From: Candidatus Cloacimonadota bacterium | GTDB taxonomy: Bacteria > Cloacimonadota > Cloacimonadia > Cloacimonadales > Cloacimonadaceae | Reading direction: 5' to 3' | DNA length: 39,069 nt | Assembly (NCBI GenBank): GCA_020532545.1 | Contig: JAJBAW010000024.1 | Coordinates: 1-39,069, forward strand | Shown: piece by piece, positions 12,040 through 25,455 of the stretch | Position numbering within the stretch: position 1 is the first letter of the stretch | Layout: every line of letters starts with the position of its first letter | Program-made: the position numbers and the translations under genes | The notes under the pieces: generated by a model | Told to the model about the DNA's origin: nothing | Databases searched by the model: none | What the model saw: the letters and a program-made list of their open reading frames with translations, nothing else

Positions 12040-14085
12040 TTACTTGCTTCTTGCCAGCCGGAATCCCACGAATTGATATCCCTTATTGGGATCACCCCGC
12101 TCGCGCCAGAGTATATTCAGATTGCGGCCTTCGCTGTTCATCACATTGCCACCGCGAATGGTCTTTTGAGTTCCGGTCTCTGGTCCGGTAGGGTTGATAA
12201 ATGTGGTCAAGGCATTGGGATAGTTTGCATCCTGCCAGTCCCAGACCCATTCTGAGACATTTCCGCTCATATCATAAAGACCAAAGTCATTGGGGCTTTT
12301 GCTCCCTGGTTTGCGCAATTTGCCGGCAGAGTTATCCCTGTACCAGGCCACATCGGCAGGATCATTGGAACCGCTGTAATTGTGGAGCTTTCCGGCTTTT
12401 GCAGCCAGTTCCCATTCGGCTTCGGTGGGCAAGCGATAGCCATTGACGTTAAAATCGCAAGTAACCACCCGCGAAGCGCCCAGCCCCCGGATGCGATAGG
12501 CGGGAGTAAGTCCTTCCGCTTCGCTCAGTCCATTGCAGTAGATGGCGATGTCGAACCAGGACACGTTATCCACAGGGAGATCCTCTCCAAAAGTGGTGGC
12601 ATTGGCGGGCTTCATAAAACGGCTCCATTCGCCCTGGGTCACCTCGTGTTTACTGATATAAAATCCCGATATAGATACGTTATGCGCCAGATTTTCGCCC
12701 AATCTGCCAAAACCAAAGGTTGAGGCTTCGATGCGGGCAAAATTCCTTCCCGGCTGCATTGGCTTGATCACCGGTGCGGGGCTGCTGTCTTTGCCCTGAG
12801 GCGAAGCGGGCAGACGCCTGGGATCCTGTCTCTCGTCCAACGAGCTGCCTTTTAATTGCCCATAGGTGGTCAGAACCGGATCTGAGCTGCTTATCGGTCC
12901 CTGGGACTCCTCGATGCGCTGGGCGAGGCTATCAGACTCTGCGTCTTTTCCCCAGACAAATCCAGTGAATTGCAGCTTATCTTCATCGGCACCAAAGACT
13001 ACCTTATAGATATTTGTGGTAAAAAGCAGGATCATCAGGACCACCACCACCCCGATCAGGATCCAGAAACCGAATTCTATTCTGGATTTGGGCATGATCG
13101 CTGCTTCCGGTTTACCTGTATCCAGGAAGCTGGTATCCTGCACGGTGCATTTTTCTGCGCCTTCCACCGGGCCCAGTTTTTCGATGGCAGTATAAAACTT
13201 TTCCAGGCTCCCAAAGCGCTGCGAGATATTGCGATGCAGGCTTTCTGCCAGCACTTTATTCAGAGCCAGGGTCACGCCCACGATCTTCACATATTTATAG
13301 AGTCTGAGGCGTTCCGGGCTATAGATATTGCGATACAAAGGGCTCAGGGCCAGCAGTTGGGCGATGACGGTGCCTATGGTAAAGATATCCTCGCGCTCAT
13401 CCTGCTCATGGTAACCTATGCCGCTGGAAAGCAGCACAGGTTCCAAATTGTCTTTGATCATGATGCTGCTGAGTTGCAAATCTGAAATGCTGAGTCCATG
13501 GCCCCGTACCAGCATTACAGTTTTAATCAATTTTAAGGCGATTTCCCTCACCAGTTCTTCCGTCAGACGTTCGGGATTGTACTGTTTGATCTCATCCAGA
13601 GAAACCCCATGCACATATTCCACAGCCATGAAAGCTGGAGAGTGATTTTGGTTTACCTCGGTCACTTTGGCGATGCTGGCATCTTCGATATGGTTCAGCC
13701 GGGTAAGCCGCATCTGCATTCCGAAGAGGGTATCCATATTGTGAAAGCTGGATTGGAAGAAGATCTTCAGCACATGTTCTTTGCCGTTTTTTTCGGCTAT
13801 GTACTTGATGCCTTCCTTGTCTTTATTCATCATGCGCAGGATTCTGTAGCCGGCAAAATGCTCTCCGGGATCCAGCAAGGTAAAGTTCTTGTTGATCGCT
13901 TCCGGGGGCGCAGCCGGAGTCACTGCTTTCGGCTTAGTCTCCCCGGCAGCTTCCTTAACTACATCTTGCTTTTCATCCAAAACCACATTTTCTCCGCAAA
14001 AAGGACAGAATTTCGCCTTTCCCGGGATCTTTTCCCCACAATTCAAGCAGTAATGCATTGTCGTAGCCTCCGGTGTTTTAGCCAT
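12040..14085 (-). CDS. Zinc ribbon-pseudokinase-TM-SUMF1/FGE-like fusion protein
   Basis: The protein has 681 residues. Cys13, Cys16, Cys27 and Cys30 form an N-terminal zinc ribbon. A protein-kinase-like domain spans about 75-310. The VAIK lysine is kept (HVLKIFF), but the catalytic loop reads SISDLQLSSIMI (Asp kept, Lys to Gln, Asn to Ser) and the DFG region reads LSSG, so catalysis is probably lost. A transmembrane helix lies at about 335-358. A SUMF1/FGE-like C-lectin-fold domain (about 445-681) carries EVTQGEW, GYRLPTEAEWELAAK, GLYDMSGNVSEW and VGFRLAR. The FGE active-site cysteines are absent, so it is a structural or binding version. The fusion would link an outside ligand-binding domain to an inside kinase-like domain. 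The ATG overlaps the ileS stop by eight bases, so they are likely cotranscribed. Confidence 0.85.
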   Translation of the reverse strand: MAKTPEATTMHYCLNCGEKIPGKAKFCPFCGENVVLDEKQDVVKEAAGETKPKAVTPAAPPEAINKNFTLLDPGEHFAGYRILRMMNKDKEGIKYIAEKNGKEHVLKIFFQSSFHNMDTLFGMQMRLTRLNHIEDASIAKVTEVNQNHSPAFMAVEYVHGVSLDEIKQYNPERLTEELVREIALKLIKTVMLVRGHGLSISDLQLSSIMIKDNLEPVLLSSGIGYHEQDEREDIFTIGTVIAQLLALSPLYRNIYSPERLRLYKYVKIVGVTLALNKVLAESLHRNISQRFGSLEKFYTAIEKLGPVEGAEKCTVQDTSFLDTGKPEAAIMPKSRIEFGFWILIGVVVVLMILLFTTNIYKVVFGADEDKLQFTGFVWGKDAESDSLAQRIEESQGPISSSDPVLTTYGQLKGSSLDERQDPRRLPASPQGKDSSPAPVIKPMQPGRNFARIEASTFGFGRLGENLAHNVSISGFYISKHEVTQGEWSRFMKPANATTFGEDLPVDNVSWFDIAIYCNGLSEAEGLTPAYRIRGLGASRVVTCDFNVNGYRLPTEAEWELAAKAGKLHNYSGSNDPADVAWYRDNSAGKLRKPGSKSPNDFGLYDMSGNVSEWVWDWQDANYPNALTTFINPTGPETGTQKTIRGGNVMNSEGRNLNILWRERGDPNKGYQFVGFRLARSK

Positions 14086-18451: not shown

Positions 18452-18717
18452 GCTGTCTTTAGACGGCCGTAGCACTGTCTTCAGACGGTGCGTGTCCAAG
18501 CTTTCTAAAGCAATGTTTCCAAAGCAGATATTACAAATCACGCACCGTCTAAAGACAGCGTTACGATGCGAATCCCAAGCTGTGCAAAGCATTCTCTCAA
18601 AGGCATTTCTTGCACGCACCGTCTGAATACAGCGTTACAATGCGAATCCCAAGCTATGCAAAGCATTCTCTCAAAGGCATTTCTTGCACGCACCGTCTAA
18701 AGACAGCGTTACGATGC
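18452..18717. repeat. Composite palindrome/tandem repeat element
   Basis: Two palindromes at the left (GCTGTCTTTAGACGGC at 18452-18467 and GCACTGTCTTCAGACGGTGC at 18472-18491) are followed by a 74-bp direct repeat at 18542-18615 and 18616-18689 and a partial third copy at 18690-18717. Each 74-bp unit starts with the reverse-oriented palindrome and ends with a GTGCAA...TTGCAC arm pair. The same arrangement with one 74-bp unit recurs at 22621-22819. The two elements flank the 988-residue gene and its downstream repeats. Confidence 0.85.
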
Positions 18718-21858: not shown

Positions 21859-21982
21859 TGGAGTTCAAAGAGCCGTTAGTATGGAGGTCAAGGAGCCTTT
21901 GCTGGTTTCAAATTATCCACTGGCTTCGGGGCTCTTTGGACTTCATATGAAACTGCAGTGCTGTTTGATTCCAAGCCACTGG
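21859..21982. repeat. ~100-bp inverted-repeat element, copy A
   Basis: A short arm, ATGGAGTTCAAAGAGCC at 21859-21875, is followed by a full copy starting ATGGAGGTCAAGGAGCC at 21881 and closing with GGCTCTTTGGACTTCAT. A tail containing TGCTGTTTGATTCCAAGCCACTGG follows. The two arms are nearly complementary, so the unit can fold into a long hairpin. Copies B (22006) and C (22463) share about 90% of the sequence by eye. Confidence 0.8.
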
Positions 21983-22005
21983 TCCTGCTGTTTGATTCCT
22001 TCCGT

Positions 22006-22095
22006 ATGGAGTTCAAAGAGCCTTTCATGGTTTCGAAATATCCACTGGCTTCAGGGCTCTTTGGACTTCATACAGAACTGCAGTGCTGTTTGACT
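22006..22095. repeat. ~100-bp inverted-repeat element, copy B
   Basis: The arm at 22006-22022 pairs with 22055-22071 at 15 of 17 positions. The copy is followed by the common TGCAGTGCTGTTTGA tail, but its tail differs from copies A and C after TGACTCC. Confidence 0.8.
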
Positions 22096-22153
22096 CCTGC
22101 TGTTTGATTCTCAGAGAGAAGCAGTCCGGAGGACGAAAGGCGAATGCCAATAG

Positions 22154-22173
22154 CCCAGCAGGTGACTGCTGGG
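22154..22173. repeat. CCCAGCAG hairpin with GTGA loop
   Basis: CCCAGCAG and CTGCTGGG form a perfect 8-bp stem closed by GTGA, a GNRA-type tetraloop if transcribed on the plus strand. There is no flanking T-run. It sits between two segments containing GTCCGGAG, possibly part of one mobile element. Confidence 0.6.
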
Positions 22174-22290
22174 GTTACCGGCAGATCGAATTCAGAGTCC
22201 GGAGCGCAGCGCAGGACGACAGCTGATCCCTCAATAAAGAATCCGCTATTATAGCCTGGGATTTATTGATTCATAGAGCTGCGGGTGCCC

Positions 22291-22440
22291 GGCCTTGAAA
22301 GGCCAGGAAAGAGTCTTGTCTTGGCAGGCAATTTTGGGCGTGGCGGTTAAAAACCGCCACCTGGAGTCTTTCAAGGCAGGAGGAGAGATTGTGACTACAG
22401 GAGGCAAATCCTGCAACTGGACGCGAGACGCATCCAATCC
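22291..22440. repeat. Module of GC-rich hairpins
   Basis: The module contains GGCCTT-GA-AAGGCC at 22291-22304, the perfect GTGGCGGTT-AAA-AACCGCCAC hairpin at 22340-22360, and GGACGC-GAGAC-GCATCC at 22419-22435 followed by AATCC. The last hairpin has the same loop and follow-on as the hairpin inserted in ileS at 14930-14946. Confidence 0.75.
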
Positions 22441-22462
22441 TGCAGGTAAAAGAGCCGTTAGT

Positions 22463-22567
22463 ATGGAGTTCAAAGAGCCTTTCATGGTTTCTAAATATCC
22501 ACTGGCTTCGGGGCTCTTTGGACTTCATATGGAACTGCACTGCTGTTTGACTCCAAGCCACTGCTGT
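22463..22567. repeat. ~100-bp inverted-repeat element, copy C
   Basis: This copy begins ATGGAGTTCAAAGAGCC and keeps the closing arm GGCTCTTTGGACTTCAT and the TGCTGTTTGACTCCAAGCCACTG tail. As in copy A, it is preceded by AAAGAGCCGTTAGT, so the preceding half-arm is part of the mobile unit. Confidence 0.8.
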
Positions 22568-22620
22568 CAAAACGGACTACTAATAATTTAAACTTAAATC
22601 TCCTTCTTGGCACGCAAGAG

Positions 22621-22819
22621 CATCGTAACGCTGTCTTTAGACGGCCGTAGCACTGTCTTTAGACGGTGCGTGTCCAAGCCTTCTAAAGCAATGTTTCCAA
22701 AGCAGATAGTGCATTTCACGCACCGTCTAAAGACAGCGTTACGATGCAATTCCCAAGCTGTGCAAAGCATTCTCTCAAAGGCATTTCTTGCACTCACCGT
22801 CTGAAGACAGCGTTACGAT
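22621..22819. repeat. Composite GTCTTTAGAC-family element, second copy
   Basis: This contains four palindromes and one 74-bp unit arranged as in 18452-18717: ACGCTGTCTTTAGACGGC, then GCACTGTCTTTAGACGGTGC, a spacer with TTCTAAAGCAATGTTTCC, the reverse palindrome, and the GTGCAA...TTGCAC segment. It closes with a reverse palindrome and TTACGAT. Conservation with the first copy is high across nearly 200 bp. Confidence 0.85.
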
Positions 22820-22877
22820 AGCGGATAGTATTCCAGTGTAAATATCCTAAGCATCTATGCAACCGCCCAAGCTATAT

Positions 22878-22904
22878 CTTCTTTTCTTTCCCAAAGAAAA
22901 GAAG
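22878..22904. repeat. 12-bp perfect AT-rich hairpin
   Basis: CTTCTTTTCTTT at 22878-22889 is exactly complementary to 22893-22904 around CCC. It lies about 140 bp downstream of the FGE-like gene on the minus strand. It may act in transcription termination or be another mobile palindrome. Confidence 0.6.
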
Positions 22905-22932: not shown

Positions 22933-22985
22933 GCATAGCCACCTTCGCTCCCTTGCTGCGCTGGGGGGAGCTACGGTGGCTATGC
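22933..22985. repeat. Two-tier hairpin downstream of the variable gene
   Basis: GCATAGCCACC at 22933-22943 pairs perfectly with 22975-22985. Inside it GCTCCC at 22947-22952 pairs with GGGAGC at 22966-22971. It begins 56 bp past the stop codon of the FGE-like gene on the minus strand. It could be a terminator-like or cruciform element. A downstream hairpin is also a known accessory of DGR target sites, though those are usually closer and smaller. Confidence 0.6.
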
Positions 22986-23041: not shown

Positions 23042-24676
23042 TTACAGACCTGCCCTGCAGAGCCGGAACCCAATGCCGTAGAAGCTGTAGTACGGGCTGT
23101 TGCCACTTCGACCCGCAACCCGGCAGAAAACGGCATAATAGTACCAGTACCCGCCCCGAGACACACGGACCGACCCGCTATTTGGGCCTGTCGGATTGGA
23201 GCTGGGACTGCTGCTGTAATAACTACTGTCCCACCAATCCCAACACCATTCATAAAGATTGCCGCTCATGTCATAAAGACCAAGCACATTGGGAGCTTTG
23301 CTGCCAACTGGCTTTGAGCCATAAGGGCTATTATTCCCATCATACCAGCCCACAGCGTTCAGATCATCCGAACCGCTATAGAGGTAGTCTGGAGTGTTGG
23401 TGGCGCCCCGGGCCGCATATTCCCATTCCGACTCGGTAGGCAAACGGTAGCCATTGGCAGTCCAATTGCAGATCGCGGCATTCCAGGTAGCATTGTTTGA
23501 AGTAGGCACAGTTCCCCAAGTAGTAGGATTGGTGGAACCGCTGATGCTATAGACCGGAGTAAGGCCTTCATCCAGGCTGCGCAGGTTGCAGTACTTCATG
23601 GCGGAGTACCAACTAACGTAGTAAACTGGGTAATTAGCCCCAACCCCATAACCAGAAGCCGGATTGGAACCCATCACGGCCGCATACTCCGCTTGAGTCA
23701 CCTGATATTTACCCAGATAAAAAGAATTCAGAGTTACGCTGTGCGTGGGAAGCTCAGAGCTATATCCACCGCCTCTGGTATCACCCATGGTGAAAGTGCC
23801 GCCGGGGACATAAACGAAGTTCTCCGGAACAGGTGGCGTGCTGCCGTCATCGGCATAGATACGGTAAAGATAGCTATCGCCTTCCAAAGTGTAGCTTTCT
23901 GCGCCGGCATCCCAGACGATGTGTTTATCCGTGCCCAAGCTTAGATCATCCCCAAAATCACCACTCAGATTGGCCAAACTGGGGATGATGTCAAAACTGG
24001 CACCGTCATTATCGGATACTTTTAATGTGATATCGCAAAGATCGCCATTGGCGTCAGAGACATCATAATAGATATCTACCAGCTTGCTACCATCGCTGCG
24101 TTGGACTGCGCTTACGTTGCTGACCACCGGTGCAGTACTGGGATTGGGAGTCTTTCCTACTGTGATGTAGTCCCAGTGGGCATATTTTGTATTGCCGTCG
24201 AACTTGCTGCTGAGGCGTAAACGCAGGCTATTGCTATTGGCAGGGATATCCACCGTTACTTGTGTCCAGGCATTGCTGTTGTTATTCACTGTCACCCAGT
24301 TGTCCCAGTTTGTGCCCGTGTCGTACATCAGGCTATAGCGGCAGTAGTCATTGGTGGTTATCAGATTTTTGGTGAAATACCAAAAGCTGAGTTGATAAGT
24401 ATAGCCGGACTGAAGTGTCTGCGTAGCAAAAGTGACAGTGCTTTCCACATTGTCCAGGTCCCAGCCGGCCCAATATGTATCGCCTTCCTGAGCTATGGCT
24501 CCACCCATCATTTCAGTGGTTGGTCCCCACCAGATGCGTTTGGCATCCGGGCTGGGGTTGGCAGTGTAGCTCCAGCTATCCGTGGCGGCAGATTCAAAGC
24601 TTTGCTGCAAGATGGTTTCGGCAAACAGCGAGAAAGAGCAGAATAATAACAAGAGCGCTACGATATTCCTTCTCAT
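23042..24676 (-). CDS. Secreted FGE/C-lectin-fold protein, probable DGR target
   Basis: The 544-residue exported protein has a signal peptide (about 1-19). A jelly-roll carbohydrate-binding-like domain (about 20-178, with YTYQLSFWYF and WDYITVGKTP) is followed by an Ig-like domain (about 185-285). A SUMF1/FGE-like domain (about 288-544) carries VYVPGGTFTMGD, YQVTQAEYAAVMG, GYRLPTESEWEYAARG and GLYDMSGNLYEWCWDWW. The catalytic FGE cysteine pair is not intact, so a binding role is likely. The last 40 residues contain RGGYWYYYAVFCRVAGR and end IGFRLCRAG, the layout of variable regions in DGR-diversified proteins. The ATG overlaps the stop of the upstream 260-residue gene by four bases. It would be exported and could show a variable ligand-binding face outside the cell. 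Confidence 0.88.
   Translation of the reverse strand: MRRNIVALLLLFCSFSLFAETILQQSFESAATDSWSYTANPSPDAKRIWWGPTTEMMGGAIAQEGDTYWAGWDLDNVESTVTFATQTLQSGYTYQLSFWYFTKNLITTNDYCRYSLMYDTGTNWDNWVTVNNNSNAWTQVTVDIPANSNSLRLRLSSKFDGNTKYAHWDYITVGKTPNPSTAPVVSNVSAVQRSDGSKLVDIYYDVSDANGDLCDITLKVSDNDGASFDIIPSLANLSGDFGDDLSLGTDKHIVWDAGAESYTLEGDSYLYRIYADDGSTPPVPENFVYVPGGTFTMGDTRGGGYSSELPTHSVTLNSFYLGKYQVTQAEYAAVMGSNPASGYGVGANYPVYYVSWYSAMKYCNLRSLDEGLTPVYSISGSTNPTTWGTVPTSNNATWNAAICNWTANGYRLPTESEWEYAARGATNTPDYLYSGSDDLNAVGWYDGNNSPYGSKPVGSKAPNVLGLYDMSGNLYEWCWDWWDSSYYSSSPSSNPTGPNSGSVRVSRGGYWYYYAVFCRVAGRSGNSPYYSFYGIGFRLCRAGL
23050..23158 (-). other. Putative DGR variable region (VR)
   Basis: The region encodes residues 507-543. 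Residues 510, 512-514, 516-517, 522, 524-527 and 529-534 (17 in all) fall where DGR templates for this fold usually carry Asn codons (pattern RGGxWxxxAxxCRVAxRxxxxPxxxxxxIGFR). Their codons are TAC, TAC, TAT, TAT, GTT, TTC, GGT, AGT, GGC, AAC, AGC, TAC, TAC, AGC, TTC, TAC and GGC. Each can be reached from AAY by changing only the adenines. The segment 23045-23074, after the last variable codon, is GC-rich and would be the place for an initiation-of-mutagenic-homing site. No template repeat or reverse transcriptase is seen in the window. Confidence 0.72.
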
Positions 24677-25455
24677 TTCACACCCCCATCGGTACGATGC
24701 AAGCGGTTTTTGATTTCCGCCAGACTAAGTTTAAGCTCTGAGTCACCCTTAGCTTCCGCCAAAACACCCGCCATGCGTCCGTCATAATCCTTATAGGCCA
24801 CGATCCGGTAAAACATCTGATCCCGGAAGCGCGCTACCCGTTGGTGGGTATAACTTAAGCTATTCGTTTCGGTCAGAAAATAAAAGAAATGTTCATCATG
24901 CTCGTAGGGGCTTTCGTTGTAGAGCACGATATAGCCATCTGGTGTGATGTCACTATTGTAAGGGGGGATGGTGTGCGTCACGGCTTGCCAATTGATCACA
25001 GCATCTACGTTATTGGAGATATCCACCATGAGTCCGGTAGGTTCGGCAGGTGGGACGTAGGTGATGGAAAAGCCCGCGGAGCTGAGCTCGCTGCTATTGC
25101 CAAAACTATCGGAGACTTGGATCTTCACTCTGGCGTTGTAGCTTTGGGTGGATGGCATCAGCCAGGGCTGGGTGCCGTCGTTGTCTGTCATTTCTGCGAT
25201 GGGGATATAATCCGTGCCGCTACTGAGGCTATACCAGAGATTCACCGAGTTATTCACCAGATTAGTATCGCTTGCTGCCCAGAGGATCTCGTTCGTATCC
25301 CCTATGTACCAGGCTTCCCCACCAGTGGGGCTAAGAATAGAAAGGCTGGGATCTACGGTGTCATTCGCCACGGGCGCTGATGTGCCATAGCTGCTGAGAG
25401 CAAAGGCTCCGCCTAGCAGCATACAGAGCACAAATGCCAATAATGCTTTACGCAT
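24673..25455 (-). CDS. Secreted Ig/fibronectin-like protein, partner of the variable protein
   Basis: The 260-residue exported protein has a signal peptide (about 1-19). An Ig-like segment (about 36-130) begins LSILSPTGGEAWYIGDTNEILW, a pattern seen in secreted proteins with Kre9/KNH-like domains. A fibronectin-III-like domain follows (about 135-235, with EPTGLMVDISNNVDAVINWQAV and YTHQRVARFRDQMFYRIVAYKD). The tail, LSLAEIKNRLHR, is helical and basic. No sorting tail is present. The strong GGAGG precedes the ATG at 25455, and the stop overlaps the start of the FGE-like gene (ATGA). The two are translationally coupled and may work together on the cell surface, for instance as a scaffold plus a variable binder. 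Function is otherwise unknown. Confidence 0.8.
   Translation of the reverse strand: MRKALLAFVLCMLLGGAFALSSYGTSAPVANDTVDPSLSILSPTGGEAWYIGDTNEILWAASDTNLVNNSVNLWYSLSSGTDYIPIAEMTDNDGTQPWLMPSTQSYNARVKIQVSDSFGNSSELSSAGFSITYVPPAEPTGLMVDISNNVDAVINWQAVTHTIPPYNSDITPDGYIVLYNESPYEHDEHFFYFLTETNSLSYTHQRVARFRDQMFYRIVAYKDYDGRMAGVLAEAKGDSELKLSLAEIKNRLHRTDGGVK

Follow-up and report, generated by a model that had tools for sequence, protein, structure and literature searches.

Introduction

In the prototype diversity-generating retroelement (DGR), that of Bordetella phage BPP-1, an inverted repeat or hairpin below the variable region (VR) is required for efficient homing, according to the part of the source available to us (PMC3240598). 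In isolates of Treponema denticola, as the accessible text describes them, DGR target genes are kept without a reverse transcriptase (RT) or template, and the authors took some of these genes to be what is left of a core DGR (PMC4891356). For Thiohalocapsa PB-PSB1, the available portion of the source reports degenerate DGR loci where the machinery is missing or pseudogenised and where MITE-like repeats are found (PMC10907252). Roux et al. (2021) state, in the excerpt at hand, that their own survey would miss remote DGR targets (PMC8144416). The literature searched contained no paper joining diversity-generating retroelements with Cloacimonadota, a result to which we attach little weight.

Here we describe a target gene in a window of 39,069 nucleotides, which makes up all of contig C34 in genome G000, an assembly of 154 contigs that totals 3.04 Mb and has a completeness of 92.5%. 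Since DGR targets that lack an RT are already in print for T. denticola and Thiohalocapsa, as far as the accessible parts of those papers go (PMC4891356, PMC10907252), the focal locus belongs to a known kind. Just as in the T. denticola isolates so described, it has a target without RT or template and an HRDC accessory gene, here reduced to a stump, and the best solved sequence relative of its protein is the treponemal TvpA; like the Thiohalocapsa loci as they are presented in the available text, it combines missing machinery with repeats. Unlike what the accessible T. denticola text describes, the locus, which belongs to another lineage, shows a cassette stump and a breakpoint at a repeat, and the order in its relatives is target, HRDC, Avd, RT, template. 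The BPP-1 target is a phage tail protein, unlike the focal one. With the type-1 cassette of the congener G041 (L029) the locus shares the VR type, the spacer, the inverted repeat and the HRDC start; that cassette, unlike the focal one, is complete with HRDC, Avd, RT and template, and the N-terminal part of its target differs (16% amino acid identity).

Intact DGR cassettes in related genomes

When 49 genomes of the family were searched with the BPP-1 RT, 15 gave a match at E 1e-20 or better. The 16 RT loci obtained had an Asn-rich template beside the RT in 14 cases; the two that showed no Asn-rich stretch in the 3.9 kb fetched both belong to G042 (C48 and C71; L030, L050) and differ from the others in RT motif, carrying GLPIGNY(L/M)SQ and YRYCDD. 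Within the genus (12 genomes), RT and template were found together in G035, G038 and G041, and in G037 a template is accompanied by a fragment of an RT where a contig begins. The templates seen in the genus are of type 1 (CRVANRNNNNPNNGNNN; G041) or type 2 (CTVSNRNNNNATN[S/T]NNN; G035, G037, G038). In G038 and G041 the target gene is followed by HRDC (PF00570), bAvd (PF22296), the RT and the template, HRDC and bAvd having been assigned by Pfam and Avd by PHROGs; a bAvd-type accessory gene is shared with BPP-1, whose RT is 36% identical to that of G041. In a wider scan of genome contigs, the G041 RT as a query retrieved eight distant relatives.

The RT (206 aa) and the template (144 bases) on G037:C73 (L036 / L099) are 100% identical to those on G038:C87 (L028 / L100), a genome assigned to a different species, which reflects either a recent transfer or cross-contamination.

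The variable region compared with the template of a congener

The VR-bearing gene and its surroundings are as follows.

23042-24676, minus strand: VR-bearing target gene encoding 544 aa, with an N-terminal signal-like hydrophobic stretch (read by eye), an N-terminal part of ~260 residues and a C-terminal FGE/C-type-lectin-fold domain
23056-23179, minus strand: variable region of type 1 (the G041 template type), matching the G041 template over 124 bases
24673-25455, minus strand: upstream gene, 59% identical (96/162, aligned part) to the gene that precedes the second VR gene (contig C31)

The G041 template differs from the VR of its own cassette, over 124 bases, at 24/40 A and at 0/84 non-A positions; since the changes fall on adenines only, the G041 cassette is a true DGR. 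When the same template was compared with the focal VR, 26/40 A and 11/84 non-A positions differed. Nine of these 11 non-A differences lie at third codon positions and only 2/44 at positions 1-2; two of the 11 change an amino acid, the template being that of another species. In the 96-base core the counts were 21/33 A, 10/63 non-A and 1/31 non-A at positions 1-2 (Fisher p: 5e-6 over all codon positions; 1.6e-7 when restricted to positions 1-2), so that 30/31 non-A positions 1-2 match and all 16 Asn codons of the template core face NNY codons in the focal VR (16/16). The focal VR thus shows a strong bias to A, not a strict confinement to A, relative to a template from another species.

The G041 template predicts the focal VR and, with the full cassette of G041, bears out the sequence-only reading, which had proposed a DGR variable region here. 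The 17 variable codons that it had counted are indeed all NNY and all reachable from AAY, and two further variable codons lie upstream of them (GTC and TCT, with AAC and AAA in the G041 template). The span it had given, 23050-23158, was about right, but the stretch matching the template is slightly shifted, to 23056-23179.

To put these counts in context, we used as controls the FGE C-termini from the searched genomes that fitted a search pattern (101 rows, of which L065 and L118 look like chance matches). After 23 rows with other spacing were left out, 78 with the same spacing were retained, and 69 once nine templates had been set aside; the template L022 (of G001) still stands among the 69. 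FGE genes whose end misfits the pattern fall outside these counts, which in G000 concerns one of its 12 FGE domains (L018). All template-Asn codons were NNY in 15/22 rows with two or fewer non-A differences at positions 1-2 from either template vs. 5/47 rows with three or more from both; without the G001 template row the figures are 14/21 vs. 5/47 (Fisher p 5.6e-6). The focal row has one non-A difference at positions 1-2 and is NNY at 16/16. The NNY criterion and the non-A-match criterion agree, and they rest on different bases of the codon.

The control set also bears on the view that the gene is an ordinary FGE paralogue, the exposed loops of which vary by usual evolution and in which a DGR was never involved. 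The genome has as many as 12 FGE domains, the loops of this fold vary freely in paralogues without a VR, and the 5/47 template-unlike C-termini that are all-NNY led us to reject NNY codons as stand-alone proof of a DGR, just as the earlier reading had cautioned that NNY alone is weak evidence. Because these loop positions are the most variable ones in the non-VR paralogues too, counts of A vs. non-A differences alone overstate the DGR case. Low synonymous divergence was likewise discarded as a DGR sign: pN and pS between the focal and G041 VRs are 0.33 and 0.32, and the VR-unlike paralogue of G000 on C83 gives much the same (0.33 and 0.39). Against an ordinary paralogue speak the match of the template core at 30 of 31 non-A positions 1-2 with every core Asn codon NNY and, directly 3′ of the gene, a DGR spacer, an inverted repeat and an HRDC start. 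Tested against the fetched C-termini, this explanation was rejected because of that cassette stump, and we regard it as hardly credible. For the DGR origin of the locus, the stump carries more weight than the codon and divergence statistics of the VR.

Remains of a DGR cassette below the variable region

From the focal stop codon to the HRDC start codon at 22854, the contig can be aligned with the VR-HRDC spacers of G041 and G043. The following features were found there and beyond.

22933-22985, unstranded: inverted repeat with arms 22966-22985 and 22933-22952, 90% complementary, 13 nt between them; largely conserved in G041 and G043
22878-22904, unstranded: AT-rich hairpin of the VR-HRDC spacer, present also in G041 and G043
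22819-22854, minus strand: stump of the HRDC accessory gene (ATG, LRIFTLEYYPLS, stop; in frame)
22620-22819, unstranded: dispersed palindromic repeat (CGTAACGCTGTCTTTAGACGG and its complement), occupying the place of the remaining cassette
21859-22563, unstranded: 123-nt repeat in three copies (21859, 21984, 22441) with inverted ends, beyond the breakpoint

The inverted repeat is separated from the stop codon above it by 57 bases and from the VR end by 71; the segment 22925-22990 gave a folding value of -35.0 with RNA parameters. It is a candidate homing hairpin or cruciform, longer than those of the phage-related DGRs described in the accessible part of PMC3240598, which have 4-nt loops and lie 4 to 34 bp below the VR.

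The HRDC stump matches the HRDC of G041 (MLRIFTLEYDPV..., MLRIFTLEYDPVRKSFDD) over 12 residues, ten of them identical, at E 3.4e-4, a value shared with the match in the spacer above it. Homology to the G041 cassette ends near 22820, at the palindromic repeat and at about codon 12 of HRDC. When the 12 congeneric genomes were searched with the focal spacer, the VR-HRDC spacer of G041 was matched at E 3e-37, and further matches were found in G043 (4e-35), G039 (1.5e-23) and G040 C39 (2.8e-16); the loci are thus the intact one of G041, G043 C78, G039 C292, G040 C39 and the focal locus, together with an HRDC-start match on G000 C56. The results show that a spacer and a truncated HRDC gene lie below the VR, and therefore that a cassette once stood in cis at the focal locus. 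The sequence-only reading had found no RT, accessory gene or template in the window; the absence of RT and template holds, but about 12 HRDC start codons and the VR-HRDC spacer had been overlooked.

Taken together, the results make it likely that the focal locus is a degenerate type-1 DGR cassette whose cis machinery has been lost here and whose target is probably a frozen product of past diversification. The target gene would once have stood directly upstream of the HRDC, Avd and RT genes and the template repeat, as it still does in G041. The template would have been copied in an error-prone manner, with adenine changes, and the copies would have homed into the VR, for which the inverted repeat served as the mark, thereby giving rise to the present exposed residues. 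Sequence with dispersed palindromic repeats would then have replaced everything from about HRDC codon 12 on, such that RT, Avd and template were lost from the locus. The VR frame and the inverted repeat are still intact, and the protein most likely works on as a fixed binder with a surface that no longer changes.

As the breakpoint lies in a many-copy repeat, a wrong assembly join may have been made there, in which case the type-1 cassette of the living cell would continue intact below the HRDC start. When G000 was searched with a 221-base query (22610-22830), at least 118 pieces matched, 40 of the 69 candidates having been scored, and cassettes run into contig ends on G000 C31 and on G037 C73, both of which fit a misjoin. 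It is opposed by the other contigs of G000, on which no piece of a DGR RT, Avd or template was found and where the HRDC pieces (C31, C56) are other copies, and by the three congeneric loci that have the same spacer and different breakpoints. We judge a misjoin to be very unlikely, and a loss through the repeats to be the better account of the degenerate cassette.

In the window the palindromic repeat family is seen at 22610-22830 and at 18452-18715.

Search for the machinery in the genome of the focal locus

No DGR-type RT was found in G000: a search with RVT_1 at E 0.001 gave two RTs, one of the group II intron type (TIGR04416, 383 bits) and one retron-like, and the BPP-1 RT as a query matched the group II intron RT only. 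A type-1 Avd query had no match in G000 at E 0.01; the same query does find the type-2 Avd of G035 and G038. With the focal VR as a query, the genome gave no close copy or template, the best other match being 66%, on C83; the template DNA of two congeners found only the VRs (on C31 and C34) and one 20-base match on C83. Of the accessory genes at the focal locus, HRDC is reduced to ~12 codons.

Contig C31 (G000:C31:1-3378, L016 / L065) carries a second VR gene of this genome, of type 2, and starts inside the HRDC gene that follows it, of which 75 residues are present (59% identity to G038); the Avd, RT and template of this cassette are therefore probably missing from the assembly. The C31 VR has ACC GTT TCC where the focal VR has CGG GTT GCG, which are not changes of template adenines, and a single template serving both VRs was rejected on these non-A differences. 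Another contig, C56, was considered as the missing type-1 cassette and rejected: it carries only an orphan HRDC fragment (~119-274; L184 / L181), which has no VR gene beside it and is interrupted by an end of the 123-nt repeat (20/22 nt).

The sequence-only reading had left the choice between a relic and a target acted on in trans, and had proposed a search of the genome for a template beside a DGR RT, the absence of which, together with a lack of excess variation in reads or close relatives, would speak against it. Neither was found in the 92.5%-complete assembly, so that this refutation applies by half; parts of the genome are missing, however, and another cassette is cut short at the edge of C31. 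With 154 contigs and cassettes at contig edges (C31 of G000, C73 of G037), an RT and a template of type 1 may exist unassembled at another place in the genome and might still diversify the VR in trans. The all-NNY VR, its intact frame and the intact inverted repeat are consistent with continued diversification; the cut end of C31 suggests that an RT probably exists; and remote targets in T. denticola (PMC4891356) and candidate remote or trans targets in Thiohalocapsa (PMC10907252) are described in the accessible parts of these sources. Against this stand the lack of any template, Avd or DGR RT in the G000 assembly, the differences by which the C31 and focal VRs cannot share a template, and the stump, which shows that the cis cassette is gone from the focal locus. 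Diversification in trans is therefore unlikely, and the stump favours a relic.

The retron-like RT (430 aa; L002, G000:C101:45021-48554) stands beside a protein of 250 aa that had no match in Pfam, NCBIfam or PADLOC at E 0.001.

Probable losses of cassettes in the genus

The loci that share the focal spacer are broken at different places. In G043, as read by eye, an element with inverted ends cuts HRDC further on than in the focal locus. In G039, homology to the spacer breaks off within the inverted repeat, which is followed by a long frame on the opposite strand that may encode a TonB-type receptor. In G040 C39, both the spacer and the HRDC start are decayed, and 12/16 template-Asn codons are NNY in the VR. 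The difference in breakpoints speaks for separate losses.

A genus C-terminus in the 69 rows was called VR-like if it had no more than two non-A differences at positions 1-2 and if all of its template-Asn codons, or all but one, were NNY. Three of the 16 so found stand beside an assembled RT and template (G035, G038, G041), and 13, in seven genomes, have no such pair adjacent (G000 2, G034 1, G037 1, G039 1, G040 3, G042 3, G043 2); among these, G037 has a template and an RT fragment on another contig, and C31 runs into HRDC at a contig edge. The assembled DNA examined below the 13 orphan genes ranged from 357 bases (C31) to more than 6 kb and was under 1.4 kb in 4/13; within it, tblastn with HRDC, Avd and RT gave only HRDC pieces, at C31, G043 C78, the focal locus and G042 C61 (15 codons).

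Seven orphans (G034 C17, G040 C48, G040 C10, G042 C96, C149 and C61, G043 C123) have sequence in common with the DNA that immediately follows cassette-bearing type-2 VR genes. In most pairs this covers roughly 100 bases from the stop onward, in G034 often 26 only and in G042 C61 up to ~170. The orphan copies of G042 share up to ~290 bases below the VR gene with each other. Below its VR gene, G037 C62 has ~33 bases in common with the cassettes, and the gene on G040 C118 has nothing in common with them. In the cassettes of G038, G035 and G001 and in G000 C31, G042 (3) and G043 C123, the last piece of the shared part is a GC hairpin of 9-10 bp with a 4-nt loop. In G030 the stem is perfect and shorter, and the hairpin is altered or absent in G040 C48, G040 C10, G034, G037 C62 and G006. 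This hairpin below type-2 VR genes recalls the one that homing in BPP-1 requires (PMC3240598), but it could also be a terminator.

It is conceivable, though rather unlikely, that the DGR targets of this genus as a rule survive the loss of their mutator, the VR and the hairpin just below it being kept while RT and template are repeatedly lost, so that the binder would be frozen and the locus could be re-mobilised by an incoming cassette. The focal locus offers a case at the level of a stump, in which a hypermutating system dies and its product survives, and among the relatives both an intact cassette and various degrees of decay can be seen. The genus could be used to address whether a useful binder becomes fixed when the mutator is lost or whether such a loss is merely neutral, and in what share of cases a target in a metagenome assembly without a neighbouring RT is a relic, a trans target or an assembly gap.

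Outside the genus, an FGE gene of G006 (L174, G006:C414) with a VR-like layout (six non-A differences, 13/14 NNY) is followed by an RT remnant (24 aa, 87.5% to the G038 RT) and is perhaps another decayed cassette.

The target gene and its protein

The FGE-sulfatase domain (PF03781) covers residues 286-540 of the target protein. Its best sequence match among solved structures is TvpA of T. denticola (2y3c, E 2.3e-43), with an alignment that runs through the VR; the VR is placed at the C-terminus of a C-type-lectin/FGE-fold protein, the fold being assigned from sequence alone. The C-terminus reads RGG-Y-W-YYY-A-VF-CRVA-G-R-SGNS-P-YY-S-FYG-IGFRLCRAGL. The hydrophobic N-terminus, as judged by eye, suggests that the protein is probably secreted. 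Outside the VR, the FGE domain is 78% identical to that of G041 at the amino acid level (pN 0.17, pS 0.78), and this conservation indicates that the protein is probably still in use, presumably as a fixed binder.

The upstream gene and the VR gene, at the focal locus and on C31, look like a duplicated two-gene unit. The focal target itself looks mosaic: next to the 78% identity of its FGE domain to that of G041 outside the VR, its N-terminal part is 43% identical to those of C31 and G038, and 16% to that of G041. A second FGE protein is encoded in the window at 12040-14085; its C-terminus, GNVMNSEGRNLN, recurs little changed in several congeners and makes a useful non-DGR control.
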